From NCBI GenBank assembly GCA_903642235.1, contig CAHJWL010000001.1, positions 124,001-188,000 on the forward strand: a stretch of DNA of 64,000 bases, given 5' to 3'. Numbering within the stretch: position 1 is the stretch's first letter; each line of letters opens with the position of its first letter. Made by a program: the position numbers and the translations under genes. The notes beneath the pieces are model-generated. The model was not told the DNA's origin and ran no database searches. It was given only the letters and a program-made list of their open reading frames with translations. Below are positions 1 to 36,729 of the stretch, in pieces. The stretch is from Acidobacteriaceae bacterium. Lineage in GTDB: Bacteria > Acidobacteriota > Terriglobia > Terriglobales > Acidobacteriaceae.

Positions 1-329
1 TGGGGAGGGGCGGCTGCATCAATGGTCCTTAGGTGTTCCCGGGGCAGCTGGCTGATAGGGTGGCTGCAAATAGTCCACAGCGATAGTTTAGACGGGCTGG
101 CGATCTGTGGTGTCGGTCGACCTGGCGTGAGGGACGCGGCCGACGAGGATCTCGCGGGTGGCGTCGACGGGAAAGCGGGTTAGGACAGAGGTGTTGACGC
201 GCTATTCATTTGGGTGTGGCTCCATAGACCGGTAACTCGAGACCGGTAACTCACGACGGGGACTCACTGCCATCAGGGATCGACTGCGCAGTCCGTTACC
301 CGACTGAGCGAAGGACGGAGGCGGGACGT
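1..329. other. Gene-free left edge with 14-bp tandem repeat
   Basis: No supportable gene is seen before the phosphatase start at 330. A 14-base unit beginning gaccggtaactc occurs twice in direct tandem at 227-240 and 241-254, about 80 bases upstream of the phoD-like start, and could be a regulator site. On the minus strand a short open stretch (about 216 down to the stop at 88-90) reads like a protein tail but has an in-frame stop before it and no start codon. Confidence 0.4.
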
Positions 330-26297: not shown

Positions 26298-27454
26298 TAA
26301 CGCCGTCCCCAGTTGTAAGCAGCCGCGGGTCCGGCACGGAGAAAACGGGTCCAGGGCAGGCTTCGCACCACCGGCCAGAGATCCGCTGTTCGCGGCAGGC
26401 CGGCTAGAAAGCGGACCAGCGAGTCTGACGGGCAATTCTGAAATAGAGCACCGAACAGGCTGGCCGCAGAACAGGAACGCTGCTGTAAGACCTGGAGAAA
26501 GAGCGTATCCATCACTTCGAGCAACCGACTGCGCTCCGGTGCAGTCGGCACACCTGTTGTGCGCAGTGAAGCAGCGCAGCTTTCGCTCCAGCGCTGGATG
26601 GCATGGAAGGCGTAGCCGGAGGAAGCACGCATACTTCCTCCTCTGGTACCCGCCTGGATGACTCTGCCCTGCGTTGACGCAGGAGCAACCGCCATCGGGA
26701 GAGATCCGCTCTCCTTCCGTTTCAGTTTCCAGCCTGGGAGCGCATGGCGGTTTAGCCAGTTCAGTAGATTTGCCTCCAGCTCCAGGGGCATGCACTCCAT
26801 GCGGGAGAACTGAGTCCACTCGCAGAGAAACTCTCGTTCCCGAATCGGAAGAACGTACATGAACTGTGCGACGCAAGCACCTTCAGGCTGGAAGTCCATC
26901 AGAGTGGGAACATGGTGAAAAGCTGACTCGGTCGGTTCGAACTCGAGAAGAAAGCCAAGGAAATGTTGCCAGAGCCATGGACTGCGCAAGGTCCTATGCT
27001 GCGGCCGAGTATCGATCACCCACGGAGCGACGGCTGTCGATCCGTCGCTCAGGGCGACCTCCACATTTGCTTCCAAGATTGTGCAGGTCTCTGCGGAGAC
27101 ACCCTGCAGCATTGAGCAGGTTGACGATCGGGCGATCGCCGCCAGCGCTTTTGCGTAGAAGAGATCGGAGCGGATCATCTCGTAGGGGTAGGCGTCGCTC
27201 CCTCGTTGTATCGTCCTAGAGCTCGCGACGACGCGCCACTGGGGCCACTCCGCCACGGCGCAGTCCTCGAAGAGATGCGATTGAACACGCCAGCCGCACC
27301 AAGTTCGGTCTTCCTCGTAGGTCAGACGCGGTTCGACGATGAGTACGTGCAGCGACGGTGCTTCGATTGCCAATCGAGTCGCCAGACTGAGACCGGCGCA
27401 CCCTCCGCCAAGGATGATGAGATCGGCCTGGATCGCTGGAGTTTGGCTGTTCAT
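26297..27454 (-). CDS. crtY: Lycopene beta-cyclase (CrtY type)
   Basis: The 385-residue product is a CrtY-type lycopene cyclase, which converts lycopene to beta-carotene by cyclising both ends. An N-terminal dinucleotide-binding motif (DLIILGGGCAGLSLATRL, residues about 9-27) is followed by EEDRTWCGW, and later by HHVPTLMDFQPEG and GTRGGSMRASSGYAFHAIQR, as in CrtY proteins. ATG 27454 overlaps the crtB stop as ATGA, indicating translational coupling; the frame open upstream to 27823 is antiparallel noise within crtB. It supplies beta-carotene to the Brp/Blh enzyme encoded immediately downstream. Confidence 0.9.
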   Translation of the reverse strand: MNSQTPAIQADLIILGGGCAGLSLATRLAIEAPSLHVLIVEPRLTYEEDRTWCGWRVQSHLFEDCAVAEWPQWRVVASSRTIQRGSDAYPYEMIRSDLFYAKALAAIARSSTCSMLQGVSAETCTILEANVEVALSDGSTAVAPWVIDTRPQHRTLRSPWLWQHFLGFLLEFEPTESAFHHVPTLMDFQPEGACVAQFMYVLPIREREFLCEWTQFSRMECMPLELEANLLNWLNRHALPGWKLKRKESGSLPMAVAPASTQGRVIQAGTRGGSMRASSGYAFHAIQRWSESCAASLRTTGVPTAPERSRLLEVMDTLFLQVLQQRSCSAASLFGALFQNCPSDSLVRFLAGLPRTADLWPVVRSLPWTRFLRAGPAAAYNWGRR

Positions 27455-28389
27455 GCCATACCTGGCATTTCGGCCAAAGGCCGATGCAGGCGATCGATCT
27501 CGGAGCCCTCGAGCACAGGATGTGGCGAGCTTGCTCGAGCAAGCACCCAACCAGCTAGAAGCAGTTTGCGCGAGGTCGACACAACGGTGCGTTCGCCCCA
27601 CCAGCGCATGCCCGAAGCCCGCAACGCGACGCCGATCTCGCGATAGATGGTTGCCGCCATCTGGATGGCGAGACGGCTGCGATACGGAATGAAGACAAAG
27701 CCCTGCGAGGCAGAGGCATAGTATCGGTCTGCCAGGGTGAGCAAGCGGCCGATCGCGCCGCTGACAGATGGTCGACACAATGGATCGGCTACGATCTGCT
27801 GCGGCGTAAGCTCGCCGAGCCATTCCCCAGGCAGATAGCGGCGGCCGATCCGGGCATCCTCAAGAACATCGCGCGCTATGTTTGTCATCTGCATCGCTAT
27901 CCCGAGATCAGCGGCATACAAGCGGGCCTGCTTCTCCTGCACCCCGAGAAGTGGCGACATCAAAAGGCCGACTGTGCCGGCGACACCGAAACAGTAACGA
28001 ACAAGCTCGGTTTCTGTCTGCAGATGCAGTGATTTCGAGCTGTCGTCGACAAAGGTCGACACTAGATGTGCGGCAACATCGAGCGGAAGGGCTCGACGCT
28101 GCGCGAGAGCAAGCAGCCCCGCGACGCAGGTATCCGCAGTCGCACCGCTGGGAAGATCGTGTGCGAGAGCCTCGAGACGCTGCACGGTTTGCGGCGTCGG
28201 AGCGTGGTCGGCGAGGTCATCAAGCGTGCGACAAAAGGCATAGAGCTCTGCGACATCTGCTGCGACCTCCCGGGGTAGAAATCTGCTGGCAAACCAGAAG
28301 GAGCGACCGTTGCGGCGCATGGTGTCTGCCGGCGTGGATGCTGCTCCTGAACACGGCGACGGTCCCTCGGGAAGTGAGAAGGTTGCCAT
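27451..28389 (-). CDS. crtB: Phytoene synthase
   Basis: This 312-residue trans-isoprenyl diphosphate synthase condenses two geranylgeranyl diphosphates head to head to phytoene. The first aspartate-rich motif is DDLAD at residues 57-61 in AELYAFCRTLDDLAD; the second is in MTNIARDVLEDARIGRRYLP (about 168-187). The start is ATG 28389, which shares one base with the crtI stop (TGATG); a GTG one codon earlier would give a GTGA overlap instead. It is the fourth gene of the rhodopsin operon, with overlaps on both sides. Confidence 0.94.
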   Translation of the reverse strand: MATFSLPEGPSPCSGAASTPADTMRRNGRSFWFASRFLPREVAADVAELYAFCRTLDDLADHAPTPQTVQRLEALAHDLPSGATADTCVAGLLALAQRRALPLDVAAHLVSTFVDDSSKSLHLQTETELVRYCFGVAGTVGLLMSPLLGVQEKQARLYAADLGIAMQMTNIARDVLEDARIGRRYLPGEWLGELTPQQIVADPLCRPSVSGAIGRLLTLADRYYASASQGFVFIPYRSRLAIQMAATIYREIGVALRASGMRWWGERTVVSTSRKLLLAGWVLARASSPHPVLEGSEIDRLHRPLAEMPGMA

Positions 28390-29858
28390 CACGCCACCCT
28401 TGGGAGCATATCGTCGACGATTTTGGCACTGGTCAGCACACCGGGTAGACCAGCGCCCGGATGCGTACCGGCTCCTACCAGATAGAGATTGGATACACCC
28501 TCCGCACGATTGTGAAAGCGGAACCAGGCTGACTGGTGAAGGACGGGTGCGAGCGAGAATCCCGCACCATCTACGCTGAGGTAGCGCTGCTCGAAGTCGC
28601 GGGGCGTCATGTGAAATCGTTCGACGATGCGCTCCTCAAGACCAGGAAGCATGGTCTCGCCGAGTGCCTTCACGATGGAATCGCCATAGGCGTCAGCGAT
28701 GTGCTCCCAGTTCGCAACAGAGCGCAGGTTCGGCACGGGAGCCAGCACGTACCAGGAGTCGCATCCGGCCGGTGCAAAGGTCGGGTCTGTCGCCGTTGGC
28801 CGATGGATGTAGAGCGAGAAGTCCTTCCCGAGATGGAAGCGGTTGAAGATGTCATGCAACAGCTCGCGATAGGTGTCGCCGAACCAGATGGTGTGGTGTG
28901 CGATCTCCGGGTACTGCCGTGTTGTACCGAAGTACAGAACGAAGAGACCCATCGAGCGCTTGGCCGCCCGCGCCTTAAGCCTGGTGAACAGAGGCGGCCG
29001 ACGCAAGAGGCCGGAGTACAGAAAGAGTGGATCGGCATCGGAGATGACGAGATCGGCTAGCAAGCGCTGCTTGGTTGCGAGTTCAACACCGATAGCAGCA
29101 CCGCCCTCGACCAGGATCTCTGTCACGGTTGTGTTGAGTCTGACGTCGATGCCGACCTCTTCCATCAACCTGCCAATTCCAGCGACGAGAGTGCCCGTTC
29201 CTCCCATTGCAAACTGAATTCCCCATCTTTGCTCAAGGTAGTGAATGAGCGAGTAAATGCTTGTCGTGCTGAAAGGATTGCCACCAACGAGCAGAGGTGA
29301 AACCGAGAAGGCCCGGCGCAGCCAAGGGTGGCGAATATGGCGGCAGACAAACTGCCAGACGCTGCGATAGCCGCCCAGCCGAACCAACTGGGGCAGCAGC
29401 GCGATCATGGTGCCGATCTGATCGAAAGACTTTGCCGCCAGTTGCTCAAAGCCGACAGCAAAGATCGCTTTCGATTCCTCCAGAAGATTCAGGTACCCTG
29501 TGCGATCGCCGGGAGAGATGCGATCAATCTCAGCGAGGGTTTCCTGCAGCGTTCCACCATAATTAAAGGATGTACCGTCGGGAAAGCGGAAGCGGTACCA
29601 GGGACTCACTGCCACAAGCTCGGCATAGTTCTCAAGCTGCTTTCCGAACAGCGCGAACAGTTCTTCAAACAGGAAGGAGGCGGTGATGACAGTCGGACCG
29701 GCATCGTGGCGAAATCCTCCTCGCTCAAAAACCTGTGCCCTGCCTCCCAGCTGAGGACAGCGGTCGATGACTAGGACCTCATAGCCTTTCGCGCGTGCTC
29801 GAAGCGCGGCTGCCAAGCCACCAAAACCCGCTCCGATGACGATCACTTTCTTACTCAT
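28389..29858 (-). CDS. crtI: Phytoene desaturase (CrtI type)
   Basis: The 489-residue FAD-dependent enzyme introduces four double bonds into phytoene to give lycopene. The N-terminal Rossmann motif VIVIGAGFGGLAAALRA (about 5-21) and the substrate-side sequence GGRAQVFERGGFRHDAGPTV (about 40-59) are typical, as is the C-terminal FAD motif GAGTHPGAGLPGVLTSAKIV (about 463-482). ATG 29858 overlaps the crtE stop as ATGA, so the two are coupled; earlier in-frame codons lie inside crtE. With crtE, crtB, crtY and brp/blh it completes the route to retinal. Confidence 0.95.
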   Translation of the reverse strand: MSKKVIVIGAGFGGLAAALRARAKGYEVLVIDRCPQLGGRAQVFERGGFRHDAGPTVITASFLFEELFALFGKQLENYAELVAVSPWYRFRFPDGTSFNYGGTLQETLAEIDRISPGDRTGYLNLLEESKAIFAVGFEQLAAKSFDQIGTMIALLPQLVRLGGYRSVWQFVCRHIRHPWLRRAFSVSPLLVGGNPFSTTSIYSLIHYLEQRWGIQFAMGGTGTLVAGIGRLMEEVGIDVRLNTTVTEILVEGGAAIGVELATKQRLLADLVISDADPLFLYSGLLRRPPLFTRLKARAAKRSMGLFVLYFGTTRQYPEIAHHTIWFGDTYRELLHDIFNRFHLGKDFSLYIHRPTATDPTFAPAGCDSWYVLAPVPNLRSVANWEHIADAYGDSIVKALGETMLPGLEERIVERFHMTPRDFEQRYLSVDGAGFSLAPVLHQSAWFRFHNRAEGVSNLYLVGAGTHPGAGLPGVLTSAKIVDDMLPRVA

Positions 29859-30724
29859 GCCTGGACGCCTGCGGCTGGAAGCTCCACACCTAATTGCGCC
29901 TGGAGTGAAAGGACGTGATCCGTCAAGACAGAACCGCACCTCGAGGGCAGCCTATCCGCTAGTGCCAAGACCGTGAACATCTGGTCCTCGGCTCTTTCAC
30001 GCGCAATCCCTCTTGCTTCCGCTACGGAGACTCTGAGCGACGTTGCGAGGACCTGCACAAAGTTCAGGCAGTTCGCGAGCTGGTCCTCTTCTACGTCGCG
30101 AAGATCATCCGCAATCTGATAGGCCACAGCGAAGGCGTCCGCTACCTGTTGTGCCAGCGGCAGGGCAGCGCCAAGCCCCGCAAACAGAAGTGGTAACTGC
30201 AGACAGAGGCTGATCAGAGAGGCAGACTTGCCAACGGCAAGAGCCTCATAGCCGGCTGGGGACTGTGGACGCAGGGTCGCTTGCAGTTCCTGAACCTGAC
30301 CGCAGATGAGTTCCTGCGTGCGCGAGGACACCAGGGCCCAAAGCTCTCGCGCACAGGAAGCAGGGGTCGTCTGCATAGAAGAGTAAGCGGCACTGAGCAT
30401 CAGATCGCCCGCGCAGATCGCGATGCCATCACTGAACTGACTCCAGGTAGAGCGTCGCCCCCGCCGCCGTGGAGACCGGTCCATTAAGTCGTCGTGCAGG
30501 AGCGAAGCATTGTGCAGGAGTTCACAGGTGGTGGCAAAGCCGATAGATATAGCTGGCGATATGCCGAGACGGTCACAGGCATCCAGACATAGCCGGGCAC
30601 GTAACTGGTTGCCCGGTACAGACAAATGATAGTTCACTGCAAGGATGACTGGATTCGTAGGGGACGCAGAGCCGGCGCAGATCCTCCGCATAGCTAGATC
30701 TACTTCATGGGCTAGATCCTTCAT
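29855..30724 (-). CDS. crtE: Geranylgeranyl diphosphate synthase
   Basis: The 289-residue polyprenyl synthase extends farnesyl diphosphate (or shorter units) to geranylgeranyl diphosphate, feeding phytoene synthase. The first aspartate-rich motif is DDLMD (residues 78-82 in ASLLHDDLMDRSPRRRGR) and the second is DDLRD (206-210 in YQIADDLRD). The spacing in the first motif (DD-x2-D) and the bulky residues before it should be compared with known synthases to confirm chain length; C20 is inferred from operon context. It begins 24 bases after the rhodopsin stop and overlaps crtI by four bases. Confidence 0.92.
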   Translation of the reverse strand: MKDLAHEVDLAMRRICAGSASPTNPVILAVNYHLSVPGNQLRARLCLDACDRLGISPAISIGFATTCELLHNASLLHDDLMDRSPRRRGRRSTWSQFSDGIAICAGDLMLSAAYSSMQTTPASCARELWALVSSRTQELICGQVQELQATLRPQSPAGYEALAVGKSASLISLCLQLPLLFAGLGAALPLAQQVADAFAVAYQIADDLRDVEEDQLANCLNFVQVLATSLRVSVAEARGIARERAEDQMFTVLALADRLPSRCGSVLTDHVLSLQAQLGVELPAAGVQA

Positions 30725-30748
30725 GCGGCTACCACCTGCTCTACACCG

Positions 30749-31528
30749 TTAGAGAGCCACAACATTCTGTTTATGCCCAGGCGTCTCAGCTTCATCCTGA
30801 CTCTTGCGAAGGGCTATGACATAGATAAACAGGCCAAATCCAGCCTTTGCAAGAATGTCAGCAATACTGTAGCCCACTTGTACGCTTACATACGCAGTAG
30901 GACCTGAAAGACCTATCAGAGGGAAGAGGTAGACTATCGGGTAGAAAAGCCAGGTAACAACCGTGATATACCGGGCGGCACTTACCATTTTTCGCGCATT
31001 CTCCGGCTGCTGGCTGATTGCAGCCTTCAATCCGAAAAACAACTCATATTGGATCAGAAGGAAGAAGATCATCGACAGTCCCCACCAGAGCAGACGGGTC
31101 CCAGTCGCCGTGGCACCTTCTCCTGGAAAGCCTAGAACAATCATCAGAACAGCGTAGGTTGCGAGGCGGGTCGACTTAGCTGTACCTTCCTTGCCGGGAA
31201 GGTTCATAACAAGAATAAGTTCAGTGACGAGGAGTGGCACTGTCAGCAGCCAGTCAATATAGCGATACGCATCATTAAAGGGACGGCCTGTCGCGGTAAC
31301 GTTTTTGTTGAGAACTGTGTAGGCCTGCTCCCAGCTATTGAAGATGCGCACATAGTGATAGAGCGCAATCATGCAAACGATACCGGAGACTGTAACCGCG
31401 GTCTTGTAGGTTGTGGAGATCTGTGAGCGGCTGAGAAAGAGAAAGACTGTCGCGGCCAACATAGATGCGATGACAAGAGACAGCGCGTTATAGACCGTGT
31501 TGTATTGCGAATAGGACAGCTGCACCAT
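30749..31528 (-). CDS. Proton-pumping rhodopsin (proteorhodopsin/xanthorhodopsin type)
   Basis: The 259-residue seven-helix membrane protein binds retinal at Lys228 (SIADILAKAGFG, helix G). Helix C reads RYIDWLLTVPLLVTE, giving Asp92, Thr96 and Glu103, the D-T-E motif of outward proton pumps with a carboxylic proton donor. His58 in helix B (ALYHYV) matches the histidine that partners the counterion. Leu100 is at the spectral-tuning site (residue 105 in proteorhodopsin), which predicts green absorption. ATG 31528 is preferred over ATG 31534 because GGAG lies six bases before it and directly abuts the earlier ATG. The gene is clearly lower in GC (about 46-47% in two sampled 60-base stretches) than its neighbours. 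It leads the carotenoid-retinal operon. Whether helix E allows a carotenoid antenna cannot be judged without alignment. Confidence 0.95.
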   Translation of the reverse strand: MVQLSYSQYNTVYNALSLVIASMLAATVFLFLSRSQISTTYKTAVTVSGIVCMIALYHYVRIFNSWEQAYTVLNKNVTATGRPFNDAYRYIDWLLTVPLLVTELILVMNLPGKEGTAKSTRLATYAVLMIVLGFPGEGATATGTRLLWWGLSMIFFLLIQYELFFGLKAAISQQPENARKMVSAARYITVVTWLFYPIVYLFPLIGLSGPTAYVSVQVGYSIADILAKAGFGLFIYVIALRKSQDEAETPGHKQNVVAL

Positions 31529-32151
31529 AGTCATCTCCAGTAGTGTTGCGGTAGAGCGTTCTTAGTGGTGAAGGTAGTCTGCTGAAGACCTTGGGAAAGC
31601 AACGAGAGCGCATTTTGTACCTTGTATCTCAAGGAAGGACAGTCGTTTGCCATCACCAGGGCTGGAGTACAGCCTCGCCTAGAAAGAGAATGAAAACTCT
31701 GATGCAAAACGAACAGTGGAGCTCAGGTCAGAAATCAGTCTGATTGGCCCTTACGGGATCCTTACCTATGCTGGCCGTCTTCCCATCGGTGAGGACCCGT
31801 ACATTGGGTGATGTGATGCTATCTGGCAGGTACAAAGAAAGCGAAACGCAAAGCAGTTTCATCAGGGCAACATGGCTCTATCTGGGTTTGTAAAGTACAA
31901 GGCCAGATGGAGGAGATGCTATTCAGGATGGCAGCCGGGGCAAGTCTGTGATGACATGACGAAGAAAAGCCGGCCTAAGAAACTGGGCGCAAGCTCGCTT
32001 CAACCGCGTAAGTCGCAAGAGGCGCTGCTGCTCCTGCTCTCTTAGTTGAGATGTCAGGGAAAGCAGCCTACCAGGCTCATGCCTCAGGAAGGATGTTCAC
32101 TGCGACATGCTCAGTGTCTCTACGACAAGCAAACACAACAGATTCTGTGGA
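31529..32151. other. 623-bp intergenic region upstream of the rhodopsin operon
   Basis: This is the longest gene-free stretch in the window and should hold the rhodopsin promoter (minus strand) and the end of the his transcript. No convincing sigma-70 pair was found. A 57-codon plus-strand ORF (31872-32045, beginning MALSGFVKYKARW) has a weak ribosome site and no recognisable family. Base composition is lower in GC than the surrounding genes, like the rhodopsin gene. Confidence 0.5.
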
Positions 32152-33321
32152 TCAGGGGCGCTGCCATTTCATCACGTCGAGGCTCTCGCGAAGAGCGGCG
32201 AGGCCCTGGGTGACGTGATCTTCGATGCCGACAGTGATGCGGATAAGTCCAGTGCAGCCGGGGTCTGAGGATCGATCGCGGAGGAGGATGCTTTTTGTTC
32301 GCATGAGAGTTACAAACTCAGCGTGGCGGGGGCCGATCTCGAAGAGGACGAAGTTCGCTTCCGACGGCCAGAAGCGAACGTTGAAGTCGCGAAGGGTAGC
32401 CTCAATGCGGGCGCGTCCGGCGCGGACCTGGTCCGTGTACCAACTCAGATAGTCCTGGTCGGCAAGGGCGTCCGGAAGCACGGTCAGCGCGATGCCATTG
32501 ACGTTGTAAGGGGAGGCCACTTTACGAACAGCGTGCATGAGCGGGGCGGGACCGGCGAGCATGCCGAGCCGAAGATTGGCAAGACCGTAGGCTTTCGAAA
32601 AGGTGCGGCCGACGATGAGATTGGGGATGTGACCCACGTCTCCGAGGGTAGTTTCGCCGTGAAAATGAAAGTAAGCCTCGTCGACGAAGAGGACGGCCTG
32701 GGGTGCGGCGCTGGCGATCTGAAGCAGCTGCTCGCGCGCGATGGTTGTACCTGTGGGGTTGTTAGGGCTGGCGACAAGGATGAGCTTGGTACGCGGGGTG
32801 ATGGCGGCGAGAAAGCGGTCAAACGGGAAGGCGAAGCTTTCGTCGCATTGAACGCGGCGCAGGTTGCCGCTCATGATGCCGACGGAGACGTCGTACATGA
32901 AGAAAGTCGGAGTGTTGATGATGGCTTCATCGTCCTCCTCGAGGAAGGCGAGGCAGAGCAGATGGATCGCTTCATCAACGCCGTTCGTGAGGAGGACCTG
33001 GTCGGGGGTCAGGCCGAAGTGCGCGGCTGTGGCGATCTCGGCGTGCTCACGCTCCGGGTAGACGGTCAGATCGGCGGCAGTTACAGATTGCAGGCGCTCA
33101 AGAACGCGAGGCGAGGGAGCAAAGGTGTTCTCGTTGAAGTCCAGGCGAAGCGCGGTGCGCGCAGCGAGGGGCGGGTGGTACTCAGGCGCGGCGAGGACAC
33201 GACGGCGGGGTTGCGGAAGTGTGGGTGCCGGGTCCGCTTGATGGCTGGCAATGTGATCGTCAAGCTGCGTGGCGGGCGTCGTAGCAAAGGAACCGGGCAT
33301 GATGGCGGACTCGGGGCTCAT
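32152..33321 (-). CDS. hisC: Histidinol-phosphate aminotransferase
   Basis: This 389-residue PLP enzyme of fold type I converts imidazole-acetol phosphate plus glutamate to histidinol phosphate. Visible family features are RLDFNENTFAPSPRVLE (about 59), LTNGVDEAIHLL (about 110), VASPNNPTGTT (about 180), VDEAYFHFHG (about 210) and the PLP-lysine motif GRTFSKAYGLANLRLG (about 230). The N-terminal 45 residues are Pro/Ala rich and longer than in most family members. ATG 33321 overlaps the hisD stop as ATGA. It is the last his gene visible in the operon; the remaining his genes are not in the window. Confidence 0.95.
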   Translation of the reverse strand: MSPESAIMPGSFATTPATQLDDHIASHQADPAPTLPQPRRRVLAAPEYHPPLAARTALRLDFNENTFAPSPRVLERLQSVTAADLTVYPEREHAEIATAAHFGLTPDQVLLTNGVDEAIHLLCLAFLEEDDEAIINTPTFFMYDVSVGIMSGNLRRVQCDESFAFPFDRFLAAITPRTKLILVASPNNPTGTTIAREQLLQIASAAPQAVLFVDEAYFHFHGETTLGDVGHIPNLIVGRTFSKAYGLANLRLGMLAGPAPLMHAVRKVASPYNVNGIALTVLPDALADQDYLSWYTDQVRAGRARIEATLRDFNVRFWPSEANFVLFEIGPRHAEFVTLMRTKSILLRDRSSDPGCTGLIRITVGIEDHVTQGLAALRESLDVMKWQRP

Positions 33322-34589
33322 GCGGTCTCCAGCTTAACGCTGATGCTGTTGGCGTGGGCAGCGAGGCCTTCGGCTTCGGCGAGGCGGATAGCATGGGGCG
33401 CGATGGTGGCGAGACCGTCGCGGGTATAACGCTGGACGGTGATGATCTTGACGAAGTCGAGAACACTCAAACCGCCGCGCATGCGGCCATGGCGGCCGGT
33501 GGGGAGAACGTGGTTGGGGCCGGAGATGTAGTCCCCGAGCGACTGCGGTGTGTGCTGGCCGATGAAGACGGAACCAGCGTTTTGGATCCAGCGGACGTCG
33601 GCGCCGTCGTCGACGGAGAGATGCTCGGGGGCGAGGCGGTTGGTGAGGGTTTGAGCTTCGGTAACAGACTCTGTTACAAAAATGAAGCCCTGCGCGGCGA
33701 GCGACTGTTGCGCAATGGGGTTGGCTGCGGATTGCAGGTCGCTCTCACGGCGGACCTGCTCGGCAAGCTGCAGGTTGGACGTGAGCAGAATGGCGAGGGC
33801 TTCGGGATCGTGCTCGGCCTGCGCGACGAGATCGGCGGCGATGCCGCGGGGGTTGCCGGTCTCGGAGGTGACGACGATCTCCGTGGGACCAGCGGGCATG
33901 TCGATCCCACAGACAGCGGAGACGGCGAGCTTGGCGGCGGTAACGTATAGGTTGCCGGGGCCGACGATCTTGTCGACGCGGGCGATAGTCTCCGTGCCGT
34001 AGGCGAGGGCGGCAATGGCCTGGGCGCCGCCAATGCGGTAGAACTCAGTGACGCCGGCGAGGTGGGCGGCAGCAAGGGTTTCAAGTGCGGGTTTGGGCGA
34101 GCAGACGACGATGCGCGGGACGCCGGCTACCTGCGCGGGCGTGGTGGTCATGAGCAGCGTCGAGGGCAGGGGATAGCGGCCGCCGGGAACGTAGCAGCCG
34201 ACGGAGCCGAGCGGGCGAACGACTTGGCCGGTCTCGATGCCGGGACCCTGCTGAGTGCTCCAGCTTTTCGGGAGCTGGCGCTCCGCAAAGGCGCGGATGT
34301 TAGCCTGCGCGACAAGCATGGCGGCCTTGAGGTCGTCGGGGATGGTGTCCCAGGCGAACTTCATTTCTTCCTGCGAGACGCGGAGGCTGGCGATGCTGGT
34401 GCCGGCGAAACCGTCGAGACGGGTGGCGTACTCGAGGAGAGACGCGTCGCCGTGGGTGCGGATGGCAGAGAGAATCTCATTGACGATGGGCGCGACCTTG
34501 GCGGTGTTGGTGTCGCCGCGATGTTCAATCTCGCGAAGGAGGGCTTCTGCCTGGTCGCGACTCTCGCCAAAGGTATGAAGGAGCTTCAT
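33318..34589 (-). CDS. hisD: Histidinol dehydrogenase
   Basis: The 423-residue zinc and NAD enzyme performs the last two oxidations of histidine synthesis, histidinol to histidine. Typical stretches are PLGSVGCYVPGGRYPLPST, VDKIVGPGNLYVTAAK, DMPAGPTEIVV, QAEHDPEALAILLTS and the C-terminal SGPNHVLPTGRHGRM. ATG 34589 (AGGA just upstream, protein start MKLLHTFGES) is chosen. A TTG at 34649 would add 20 residues and overlap the preceding gene's stop as TTGA, so it remains an alternative. It is coupled to hisC by an ATGA overlap. Confidence 0.95.
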   Translation of the reverse strand: MKLLHTFGESRDQAEALLREIEHRGDTNTAKVAPIVNEILSAIRTHGDASLLEYATRLDGFAGTSIASLRVSQEEMKFAWDTIPDDLKAAMLVAQANIRAFAERQLPKSWSTQQGPGIETGQVVRPLGSVGCYVPGGRYPLPSTLLMTTTPAQVAGVPRIVVCSPKPALETLAAAHLAGVTEFYRIGGAQAIAALAYGTETIARVDKIVGPGNLYVTAAKLAVSAVCGIDMPAGPTEIVVTSETGNPRGIAADLVAQAEHDPEALAILLTSNLQLAEQVRRESDLQSAANPIAQQSLAAQGFIFVTESVTEAQTLTNRLAPEHLSVDDGADVRWIQNAGSVFIGQHTPQSLGDYISGPNHVLPTGRHGRMRGGLSVLDFVKIITVQRYTRDGLATIAPHAIRLAEAEGLAAHANSISVKLETA

Positions 34590-34645
34590 GGTTCCTGCTT
34601 GTCTTGACTGCTGGTGTCGTTCGTAGAGCGCGTTTGGCAGGGTGC

Positions 34646-35113
34646 TCAACGAATCTTGTTGATAGGCGGCTGATAGCCGGATTGGGTTCTCTGGTGAAAG
34701 CGGCGCGGGTGCTTGAGTTGAGCCTGCATGAGCTTCTGCTCCTGTTTTGTGCCGGTAAGGGTTACACGTTTTGCGGCTTCCGGAGAGGCGGGGTAGACGC
34801 GCTCGGGTTTCTTCGGGTCGATAACAACGATGAGGCTGAGGTTAGGGGTGATGCGCTGGCCGGCCGGCAGGCGGGTGCGAAGCGTGACTTCGCGCGGAGG
34901 CTTGGCGGGCTCCTGAACGCGAAGGCGGATGTCGTGAAGGCCGAGAGCCTTGAGCCAGCCGCCGATCTTTGCGGCGGAGATGACAATGCCATAGAGCACC
35001 AGGCCTTCGTTCTGAATCTTCTCCTGCGCCCGGCGCTGGCGCAGGTAGTTGATGCCGGAGACGAGAGCGAGAAGAGCGAGGATGCTGAGCGTGATGATGA
35101 GAGTGAGCTTCAT
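34646..35113 (-). CDS. Small membrane-anchored protein of unknown function in the his operon
   Basis: This 155-residue protein begins with one transmembrane segment (about 3-22, LTLIITLSILALLALVSGIN). A short basic stretch (YLRQRRAQEK) and a soluble alpha/beta-looking domain (about 35-115) follow, and the tail is basic (HPRRFHQRTQSG). The N-in, C-out or C-in topology cannot be decided. I do not recognise a family. It sits between hisG and hisD on the same strand, 57 bases before the preferred hisD start, so it should be co-transcribed with histidine genes, but nothing in the sequence ties it to histidine synthesis. Confidence 0.6.
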   Translation of the reverse strand: MKLTLIITLSILALLALVSGINYLRQRRAQEKIQNEGLVLYGIVISAAKIGGWLKALGLHDIRLRVQEPAKPPREVTLRTRLPAGQRITPNLSLIVVIDPKKPERVYPASPEAAKRVTLTGTKQEQKLMQAQLKHPRRFHQRTQSGYQPPINKIR

Positions 35114-35265: not shown

Positions 35266-36144
35266 CTAGAGGACCACCTTGCTGAGCGGGTACTCGACAA
35301 TGCCAGTCGCGCCAGCCTCTTTGAGTCTGGGGATGACGTCGCGGACGGTGCGCTCGTCGAGAATGGTATTGAGGGCGACCCACTCGGAGTCCGAGAGCTG
35401 GGAGATGGTGGGAAAGTTCAGCGCGGGAAGAACGCGAAGCACATCCGTCAGGTCAGTCTTCATGACATTCATCATGAGACCGACGCGGCCCTGGGCGGCG
35501 ATCGCGGCGTTGAGCATGAGTGAGACATTCTCGATCTTCCTACGCTTCCACTCATCGGCAAAGGCGGAGCGGTTAGCGATGAGCTGAGTCTCAGACTCCA
35601 TAAGGGTTTCAATGATGCGGAGGCGATTGGCACGGAGAGAGGAGCCGGTCTCAGTGACTTCGACGATAGCGTCAGCGAGGGTAGGCGGCTTGACCTCGGT
35701 GGCACCCCAGGAAAACTCGACTTTGACGGGAATATTTTTCTCGGCGAAGTAGCGCTTCGTGTACTCGACGAGTTCGGTGGCAATGATCCTGCCAGCGAGA
35801 TCTTCGGGCCGCTGAAAAGGGGAGTCTTCAGGAACGGCAAGGACCCACTTAACGGCATTGCGGGACTGCTTGGAGTAAGTGAGGGAGGTAATGCGCTCGA
35901 CATCAGACTGGTTCTCGAGGATCCAATCGTTGCCGGTGAGACCGGCGTCGAGGGCGCCGTGCTCGACGTAGCGGGCCATCTCCTGCGCACGGACGAGCAT
36001 GCATTCGATGTCGTCGTCGTCGATGGTGGGGAAGTAGGAGCGGCCGTTGGCGAAGATGCGCCAGCCGGCGCGTTCAAAGAGGGCGATGGTGGCGTCCTGG
36101 AGTGAGCCTTTGGGAATGCCGAGGCGGAGCTTCTGCTGGCTCAT
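35266..36144 (-). CDS. hisG: ATP phosphoribosyltransferase (long form)
   Basis: This 292-residue enzyme commits ATP and PRPP to histidine synthesis by forming N1-phosphoribosyl-ATP. It starts [20 protein letters not shown], shows [11 protein letters not shown] (about 68), and has the phosphate-binding [18 protein letters not shown] (about 163-180). The C-terminal 75 residues ([20 protein letters not shown]) form the ACT-like domain that binds histidine in the long form, so feedback inhibition is expected. ATG 36144 overlaps the hisI stop (ATGA) with GGAG seven bases upstream. Confidence 0.96.
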
Positions 36145-36512
36145 CGGGCGACTCCATTGGCGGTTGGCAGTGCAATCGGCCTGGTGAAGCAGGAGACCGT
36201 GCCCTCGTGGCAGACGAGTCCGTCACCTTCGACCTCGACCTTGAAGAGGAGCGTGTCGGTATCGCAGTCCGTGGCGGCACTGAGGATACGGAGGCGGTTG
36301 CCGCTGGTCTCGCCCTTCATCCAGAGCTTGTTGCGGGTGCGGCTCCAGAAGGTGACGAAGCCGGTCTCGAGGGACCGCTGGTAGCTGAGCTCGTTTAAGA
36401 ATCCGAGCATGAGAAGCTCGCCAGAGCTGGCATCCTGCACGATACCGGGAACAAGACCGCCCATCTTATCGAAGTCGATGGTGGGCGCAAAGGTGGAAGC
36501 GGTGGTGGTCAT
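36141..36512 (-). CDS. hisI: Phosphoribosyl-AMP cyclohydrolase
   Basis: The 123-residue zinc enzyme opens the purine ring of phosphoribosyl-AMP, the third step of histidine synthesis. It is the stand-alone HisI form without a fused HisE domain. Conserved parts are [20 protein letters not shown] (about 50-69), the metal-binding [11 protein letters not shown] (about 82) and CHEGTVSCF (about 100). It is the first structural gene of the his operon, with AAGGAG just before its ATG, and lies downstream of the His-rich leader peptide and attenuator, so its transcription should depend on histidyl-tRNA charging. Confidence 0.95.
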
Positions 36513-36562
36513 GAGCTCCTTTTCGAGGGTTGCTGGCGGAGGCGTCGAGTGGGTGGCAGAAG

Positions 36563-36601
36563 AAAGGCCCGCTCGCGGTGAACGCGTTGGCGGGCCTTTT
36601 T
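36563..36601 (-). terminator. his operon attenuator terminator hairpin
   Basis: On the transcribed minus strand, AAAGGCCCGC (36599-36590) pairs with GCGGGCCTTT (36572-36563) in a 10-bp stem, with an inner CGCG/CGCG pairing, followed by TTCT. It lies between the His-rich leader peptide and hisI. Its 5' arm contains CCGCCAAC (36593-36586), which is perfectly complementary to GTTGGCGG (36651-36644) inside the leader-peptide reading frame, giving a mutually exclusive antiterminator. The hairpin could also stop transcripts from the other side. Confidence 0.8.
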
Positions 36602-36623
36602 GAAGTCCTGAGGAGCGATGCTT

Positions 36624-36692
36624 TTACTTCGCCACGACAGACGCCGCCAACATGCGATGGGAATGTCCGTGATGGTGGAGGCAGGCGCTCAT
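36624..36692 (-). CDS. hisL: His operon leader peptide, His-rich
   Basis: A 22-codon ORF reads MSACLHHHGHSHRMLAASVV then AK and stop. Five of seven consecutive residues (6-12) are histidine. It lies 112 bases upstream of hisI and directly before the terminator hairpin. It has no Shine-Dalgarno sequence, but a good promoter ends eight bases upstream, so the transcript probably starts at or next to the AUG (leaderless). Known his leaders of enterobacteria work the same way: scarce charged tRNA-His stalls the ribosome on the His codons and lets an antiterminator form. A ribosome stalled on codons 6-8 would leave the antiterminator segment at codons 14-17 free; one that reaches the stop would cover or pass it. 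Confidence 0.82.
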   Translation of the reverse strand: MSACLHHHGHSHRMLAASVVAK

Positions 36693-36700
36693 CAGATTCA

Positions 36701-36729
36701 ACGGTAAAGGCAGGCAGGAGCGGTGTCAA
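36701..36729 (-). promoter_or_regulatory. his operon promoter
   Basis: On the minus strand a perfect -35 box TTGACA (36729-36724), a 17-base spacer and TACCGT (36706-36701) precede the leader peptide ATG by eight bases. The predicted start of transcription falls within about two bases of that ATG. Confidence 0.72.

Follow-up and report, generated by a model that had tools for sequence, protein, structure and literature searches.

A putative ribosome-mediated attenuator with a His-rich, probably leaderless leader peptide upstream of the hisI operon in acidobacteria

Described attenuators and the acidobacterial his leader

The enterobacterial hisL (Rfam RF00514) is a His-rich leader peptide followed by alternative terminator and antiterminator structures before the his operon (PMC9413887; here and below, statements on papers cited by PMC number refer to the excerpts available). 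His attenuators are described in Proteobacteria and Firmicutes, and those of the latter phylum (Bacillus cereus group, Peptostreptococcaceae and Erysipelotrichales) likewise combine a His-rich peptide with a terminator and an antiterminator; the excerpt of that paper neither mentions acidobacteria nor claims leaderless messages for the Firmicutes attenuators (PMC9413887). In Actinobacteria, the excerpt of PMC1262725 reports no conserved his element. As of 2010 leader peptides were known in Proteobacteria and Actinobacteria, to which PMC2965389 added those preceding Bacillus hisS and hisZ, and according to the same excerpt hardly any predicted acidobacterial attenuator had been given a function. 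The remark in the initial annotation of the present locus that peptide-type his attenuation is best known from enterobacteria is justified, although Firmicutes too have his leader peptides (PMC9413887, PMC2965389). Its further remark that none is described in acidobacteria agrees with the literature searched, where no such description was found; most subscription papers lie outside that literature, so that the absence is not proof.

Leaderless attenuator peptides are known from Sinorhizobium (PMC7298713) and Corynebacterium (PMC11857589). The trpL transcript of Sinorhizobium meliloti, also an attenuation system, begins at the leader ORF's own ATG (PMC7298713), and the ilvBNC leader of Corynebacterium glutamicum couples a leaderless peptide with a three-hairpin model (PMC11857589). 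Unlike the acidobacterial his leader, however, the former is a Trp leader before trpE(G) in Alphaproteobacteria and the latter concerns branched-chain amino acids in Actinobacteria. In the polycysteine attenuators of mycobacteria, too, the ORF is leaderless and contains an uninterrupted run of codons for the amino acid sensed (Canestrari 2020 via PMC9031893); since they sense cysteine, they are closer to the acidobacterial Cys leader described below than to the his leader.

The present locus lies in the window, that is, the whole 64,000-nt stretch analysed, from a genome of 3.79 Mb, and all its elements are on the minus strand. Re-reading of the sequence confirmed to the base the element positions of the initial annotation. 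The −35 element TTGACA (36724–36729) and the −10 element TACCGT (36701–36706) are separated by 17 nt, and the latter stands 8 nt 5' of the ATG of the leader ORF MSACLHHHGHSHRMLAASVVAK (36624–36692; ATG 36692–36690, 22 codons, TAA 36626–36624), which is probably leaderless. The putative regulatory His codons, residues 6–8, 10 and 12 (36657–36677), form a conserved cluster. They are followed by the antiterminator segment 2 (36638–36657, recognised by comparison and folding), whose core GTTGGCGG (36651–36644) is the exact complement of the core CCGCCAAC (36593–36586) of segment 3 (36582–36598), the 5' arm of the terminator. The intrinsic terminator hairpin 3:4 (36564–36598, −22.8 kcal/mol) is supported by covariation and has a U-rich tract reaching to 36558, while a protector hairpin 1:2 (36632–36675; 36675–36658 with 36649–36632) is indicated by folding and by the swapped-arm tests described below.

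The operon downstream has the order hisI-hisG-X-hisD-hisC. Behind a Shine-Dalgarno sequence AGGAG (36516–36520, by reading), its first gene hisI (36141–36512, ATG at 36512) encodes phosphoribosyl-AMP cyclohydrolase (Pfam PF01502, 3e-28) and overlaps hisG (35266–36144, Pfam HisG and HisG_C) by 4 nt; hisD (33318–34649, PF00815) has an uncertain start codon, and the hisC-like aminotransferase gene (32152–33321, PF00155) is called hisC by position and reading. X, between hisG and hisD (34646–35113), encodes a 155-aa protein of unknown function without Pfam match. By reading, this protein has a hydrophobic stretch at the N-terminus, and a similar ORF is found in seven of the 155 other loci of L001–L156 (two at 26% identity), a count limited by the flank lengths. 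Further along the window (27451–31534, minus strand) a rhodopsin gene (Pfam Bac_rhodopsin) precedes ORFs that, by reading, resemble polyprenyl synthase, phytoene desaturase and phytoene synthase; the group perhaps represents a light-driven pump and the carotenoid genes belonging to it.

The reading we favour, with a probability of roughly 0.94, is that hisI-hisG-X-hisD-hisC is controlled by a ribosome-mediated transcription attenuator of the classical three-hairpin type whose leader peptide is translated from a leaderless message. We infer the transcription start, the translation of the leader and the response to histidine as follows. RNA polymerase would start at the AUG or within about 3 nt of it, and the ribosome would initiate directly on the 5'-terminal AUG. 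When His-tRNA is plentiful, the ribosome would reach the stop codon and cover segment 2, and the terminator 3:4 would form. When His-tRNA is scarce, the ribosome would stall on the His cluster and open 1:2, segment 2 would pair with segment 3, and this pairing would block the terminator and allow transcription of the operon. In the absence of translation, 1:2 would form and lead to termination.

Judged from its sequence, the acidobacterial leader would work like the enterobacterial his attenuator yet matches no Rfam his-leader model: RF00514 gives no match in the window at the gathering score, nor in the leader at E values up to 10. It also differs from hisL in being probably leaderless and in preceding an operon that begins with hisI. 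Among the leader matches at E ≤ 10, the best, ctRNA_p42d (22.9 bits, gathering score 50), and Trp_leader (19.1 bits, gathering score 41) were set aside. Control of the operon by a T-box or a riboswitch might be considered in view of the His T-boxes of Firmicutes and Actinobacteria (PMC9413887), but the window holds no Rfam family at the gathering score and the E ≤ 10 list of the leader includes no T-box and stays far below the gathering scores throughout, so that this reading has a next to negligible probability. A peptide-type his attenuator would bring this mechanism into a phylum whose predicted attenuators almost lacked an assigned function as of 2010 (PMC2965389, excerpt).

Conservation of the leader upstream of hisI

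Among 61 related genomes, hisI was located in 57, and 53 of these have a small ORF with at least three clustered His codons directly upstream. The class-wide search found hisI in 352 of 399 genomes. The best 80 of 534 HisI relatives in titled genomes are acidobacterial by title, mostly MAGs with one Verrucomicrobia label, and include Granulicella, Edaphobacter, Terriglobus, Terracidiphilus, Silvibacterium and Acidipila. A set of 196 loci was drawn from the related genomes, these 80 titled loci, 19 new class-wide loci and 40 chosen loci of other genera, and it includes the same genomes from two collections. Under a rule asking for an ATG start, at least four His in nine residues, a length of 8–40 aa and a distance of at most 400 nt upstream of the hisI match, a His-rich ORF is present in 187 of the 196 loci, versus 9 of 3860 dinucleotide shuffles and 1 of 193 reverse complements. 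Behind the ORF, 186 of the 187 carry a terminator (median −22.5 kcal/mol; median gap from stop codon to stem 25 nt), the exception under the rule used being L045, and that of L176 is very weak. The arrangement looked for in relatives on the suggestion of the initial annotation, a His-run ORF and then a terminator before hisI, is thus common among them; the cultured relatives Terriglobus roseus (L137) and Granulicella aggregans (L073) are two of its carriers. The 186 leaders with a terminator include 164 distinct ones, which supply a collection of natural leaders with coevolving arms.

Nine loci have no ORF passing the rule. Three of them (L046, L114 and L192) have less than 330 nt of upstream sequence covered, the leader of L112 starts with GTG, L051 and L192 have only three His, and no His leader is found upstream of hisI in L054, L055 and L056. 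In the ninth, L184, the ORF before hisI looks leaderless by reading and holds a single His codon; a hairpin is also present, and the whole may be an attenuator whose sensor codons have been lost. At the family level, where sampling left out f12, f13 and f14, the leader unit is present in most sampled families of the class; it is absent from the single sampled loci of f9 and f10 and from both f4 loci, one of them short, and in f5 L051 has three His and L176 is doubtful.

The peptides contain 4 to 10 His each. In 29 peptides of equal length, residues 12, 13 and 14 are His in 29, 28 and 29 cases, respectively, with both CAT and CAC in use. At every position where at least one of two compared peptides has His, pairwise codon differences add up to 827 synonymous and 892 non-synonymous ones, so the His cluster as a whole is not rigidly kept. 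That the small ORF encodes a functional His-rich metal-binding peptide, with the hairpin merely its terminator, would suit this number of His residues; moreover, the loci were collected through hisI, and of the seven promoter-ATG matches in the genome of the window (see below) only the his leader opens a His-rich ORF. The rest of the peptide, however, varies between families while the pairings 1:2 and 2:3 are kept, and a metal-binding peptide is extremely unlikely.

Outside the class, 20 loci were picked by hand for stand-alone-looking hisI frames, and 18 of them have a His ORF before hisI (two only with GTG or TTG starts), a proportion that is not an unbiased rate because of the picking. A terminator stronger than −12 kcal/mol follows in 17 of these 18, that of L311 being very weak and unconvincing. 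Among the 30 best-scoring PF01502 loci of other classes, 2.2–3.2 kb searched on the hisI strand contained no His leader.

Alternative pairings and the protector hairpin

The pairings were examined in 85 distinct leaders less than 80% identical, of which 49 form an alignment (A1) that leaves out 31 leaders of other families and L035, L037, L133, L148 and L171. The antiterminator pairing 2:3 is kept in 86.0% of the cells of A1 versus 82.6% in shuffles (0/500 as high), and sliding the partner by 1–3 columns lowers the paired share to 20–54%. An example is the column pair 70:156, which is U-A in 30 leaders, C-G in nine, U-G in four and unpaired in six. For 2:3, three of five covariation measures exceed all 500 shuffles, including cells changed on both sides (26 versus 10.7; 0/500), and two do not, namely pairs with change on both sides (6 versus 4.3; 48/500 as high) and further pair types (17 versus 16.4; 228/500 as high), which are the measures least affected by relatedness. 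The terminator passes all five (0 to 6 of 500 shuffles as high), with 35 both-side-changed cells versus 16.1 and nine both-side-changed pairs versus 5.7 (0/500 each). The covariation that the initial annotation proposed to look for is accordingly found in the terminator and by most measures of the antiterminator, but not by two of the latter's five.

An alignment-free comparison of each leader's own arms with arms exchanged among leaders favours the native combination for 1:2 and 2:3, and not for 1:3, a pairing that is not expected to form. In the 85 leaders, z is −8.7 for 1:2, −8.6 for 2:3 and −1.1 for the control 1:3; in 46 leaders the values are −6.0, −5.6 and −1.1, and in 19 leaders below 62% identity −4.8, −3.7 and −0.05, the larger sets being inflated by relatedness and the 19-leader set much less so. 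The 18 leaders of other classes give −2.9, −4.3 and +0.25, with 42, 1 and 11971 of 20000 permutations as good. Some single leaders, for example L040, L041, L176, L178 and L179, pair no better with their own arm. The proposal that antiterminator and terminator exclude each other is upheld by this own-arm preference of 2:3 both within the class and outside it, and that of his attenuation by a leader peptide by the conserved His codons and by pairings kept through compensatory changes. Comparison of natural sequences thus shows the pairings 1:2, 2:3 and 3:4 as well as the ORF with its His codons and the terminator.

The same data bear on the idea, put forward in the initial annotation, of a simplified two-state attenuator in which terminator and antiterminator alternate without a protector hairpin. 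In its favour, RNAalifold on the family alignment recovers only the terminator well and has no strong 1:2 hairpin; poor alignment of the ORF's first half accounts for the weakness outside the terminator and is why the swapped-arm test was used instead. In addition, when the 3' terminator arm is missing and no ribosome is present, 2:3 forms at equilibrium in 57 of 85 leaders (mean 1:2 pairing 0.23), so that the off-state without translation would depend on 1:2 forming first. Against it, when only the part 5' of the terminator is folded, segment 2 pairs with the upstream half of the ORF at a mean probability of 0.66 over the 85 leaders; 61 of them have a folding z below −1 and two a z above 1. 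The pairing 1:2 also coevolves as strongly as 2:3. In the window, the 151-nt leader has a folding z of −3.6, a value matched by 1 of 200 shuffles; the predicted fold starts at the third base of the AUG, and the 1:2 hairpin takes in most of the antiterminator core. Because 1:2, pairing segment 2 with the first half of the ORF, is a classical protector hairpin, the simplified design is rejected as very unlikely.

For the three-hairpin attenuator, a model ribosome with an assumed footprint was placed on the 85 leaders in the absence of the 3' terminator arm. With the ribosome on the His cluster, 2:3 is predicted to form in 82 (first His) or 83 (middle His) of them, versus none with the ribosome at the stop codon. 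When arm 4 is present, the terminator persists in the window's minimum-energy fold even if a ribosome occupies the His codons, so the choice between terminator and antiterminator must be kinetic.

Promoter position and probably leaderless leader peptides

In leaderless bacterial genes, a TA-like signal about 10–12 bp before the start codon is a hallmark (PMC3160421). A generic sigma-70 scan did not call a promoter at the leader of the window, which is ascribed to TACCGT being a poor −10 element, and the promoter shows itself through conservation. In 101 leaders (the 85 and 16 of other classes), allowing up to two mismatches in TTGACA, a promoter is recognised in 83 and none in 18, and the best promoter has an exact TTGACA in 57. 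The −10 element ends 4–11 nt before the ATG in 70 of the 83, mostly 8–9 nt (shuffles 26/2020), and since the ATG was chosen by a length rule some of these distances may be off. TAnnnT occupancy peaks at 8–9 nt: of the 101 leaders, 28, 28 and 15 have the motif at distances of 8, 9 and 10 nt from the ATG, and no distance from 15 to 39 nt has it in more than three. Several leaders of family f6 have a poor −35 element, yet carry TAnnnT at the same place. SD-like 4-mers precede the leader ORF in 4 of 101. Furthermore, seven sites in the whole genome, the his leader among them, fit TTGAC-18/19-TAnnnT-6..10-ATG, versus two in the reversed control.

Promoter position and SD scarcity indicate that the his leader mRNA is probably leaderless; this favours the leaderless peptide suggested in the initial annotation, as the promoter lies so close to the ATG that a leaderless message should result. 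An attenuator whose message starts further upstream and whose ORF is initiated in the ordinary way would fit the weak TACCGT, the 18 leaders lacking a recognised promoter and the 13 of the other 83 with the best promoter outside 4–11 nt, but is unlikely in view of the TAnnnT peak at 8–10 nt, the frequency of exact TTGACA, the rarity of SD-like 4-mers and the place of the window leader among the few genome-wide fits. With this attenuator in hand, whether the switch requires leaderless initiation becomes testable.

The seven sites also include an ORF MAFSQLLAGACCPDRARTLLWG before sulfite reductase (G000:C2 from 25654; L322, L329), which has two Cys and fails the Cys ORF rule. Thirty sulfite reductase loci (L330–L359) of 30 genomes were surveyed with this rule, an ATG ORF with a given Cys count in nine residues. 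At least four Cys are found in 17 of 30 loci (5/900 shuffles, 2/30 reverse complements), and at least three in 25 of 30 (40/900 and 6/30). The Cys ORF lies 4–11 nt behind TAnnnT in 23 of the 30, with a terminator-like hairpin in 22 of these. Exchange of arms among 20 Cys leaders gives z −4.5 for 1:2 and, weakly, −1.9 for 2:3, the control 1:3 being no weaker at −2.3. A Cys-rich leaderless leader before assimilatory sulfite reductase is therefore likely to be real in relatives, as a candidate switch. Looking for promoters that directly precede short ORFs with a codon run offers a way to find further leader peptides, and has already given this Cys candidate.

In the regions up to 450 nt upstream of trpE-family genes (23 loci), ilvB (17 loci, less than 80 nt covered in three) and leuA (18 loci), no Trp-rich small ORF (at most two Trp in eight residues) and no convincing branched-chain leader, respectively, are found, in a search that covered these genes and not the first genes of their operons. 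At somewhat less than even odds, leaderless leader peptides may form a general layer of regulation in acidobacteria, comprising no less than a His attenuator before hisI and a Cys attenuator before assimilatory sulfite reductase, each followed by a terminator; initiation on the 5'-terminal AUG would then be part of the switch, because folding of the leader would set in only a few bases further on.

In the genome of the window, two ordinary genes, by reading a nuoA-like one (L323, G000:C3:337059) and one for an XRE-type regulator (L325, G000:C9:122798), also follow directly on a promoter of the kind seen at the his leader; leaderless genes thus probably extend beyond leader peptides. Another of the seven sites (L324/L328; G000:C5, promoter 295171–295208, minus strand) opens the leaderless-looking ORF MLSVSRCCCCRSSQACPAELSRRAHTCR, followed by a gene for a TonB-receptor-like outer membrane protein and by an aminotransferase gene.
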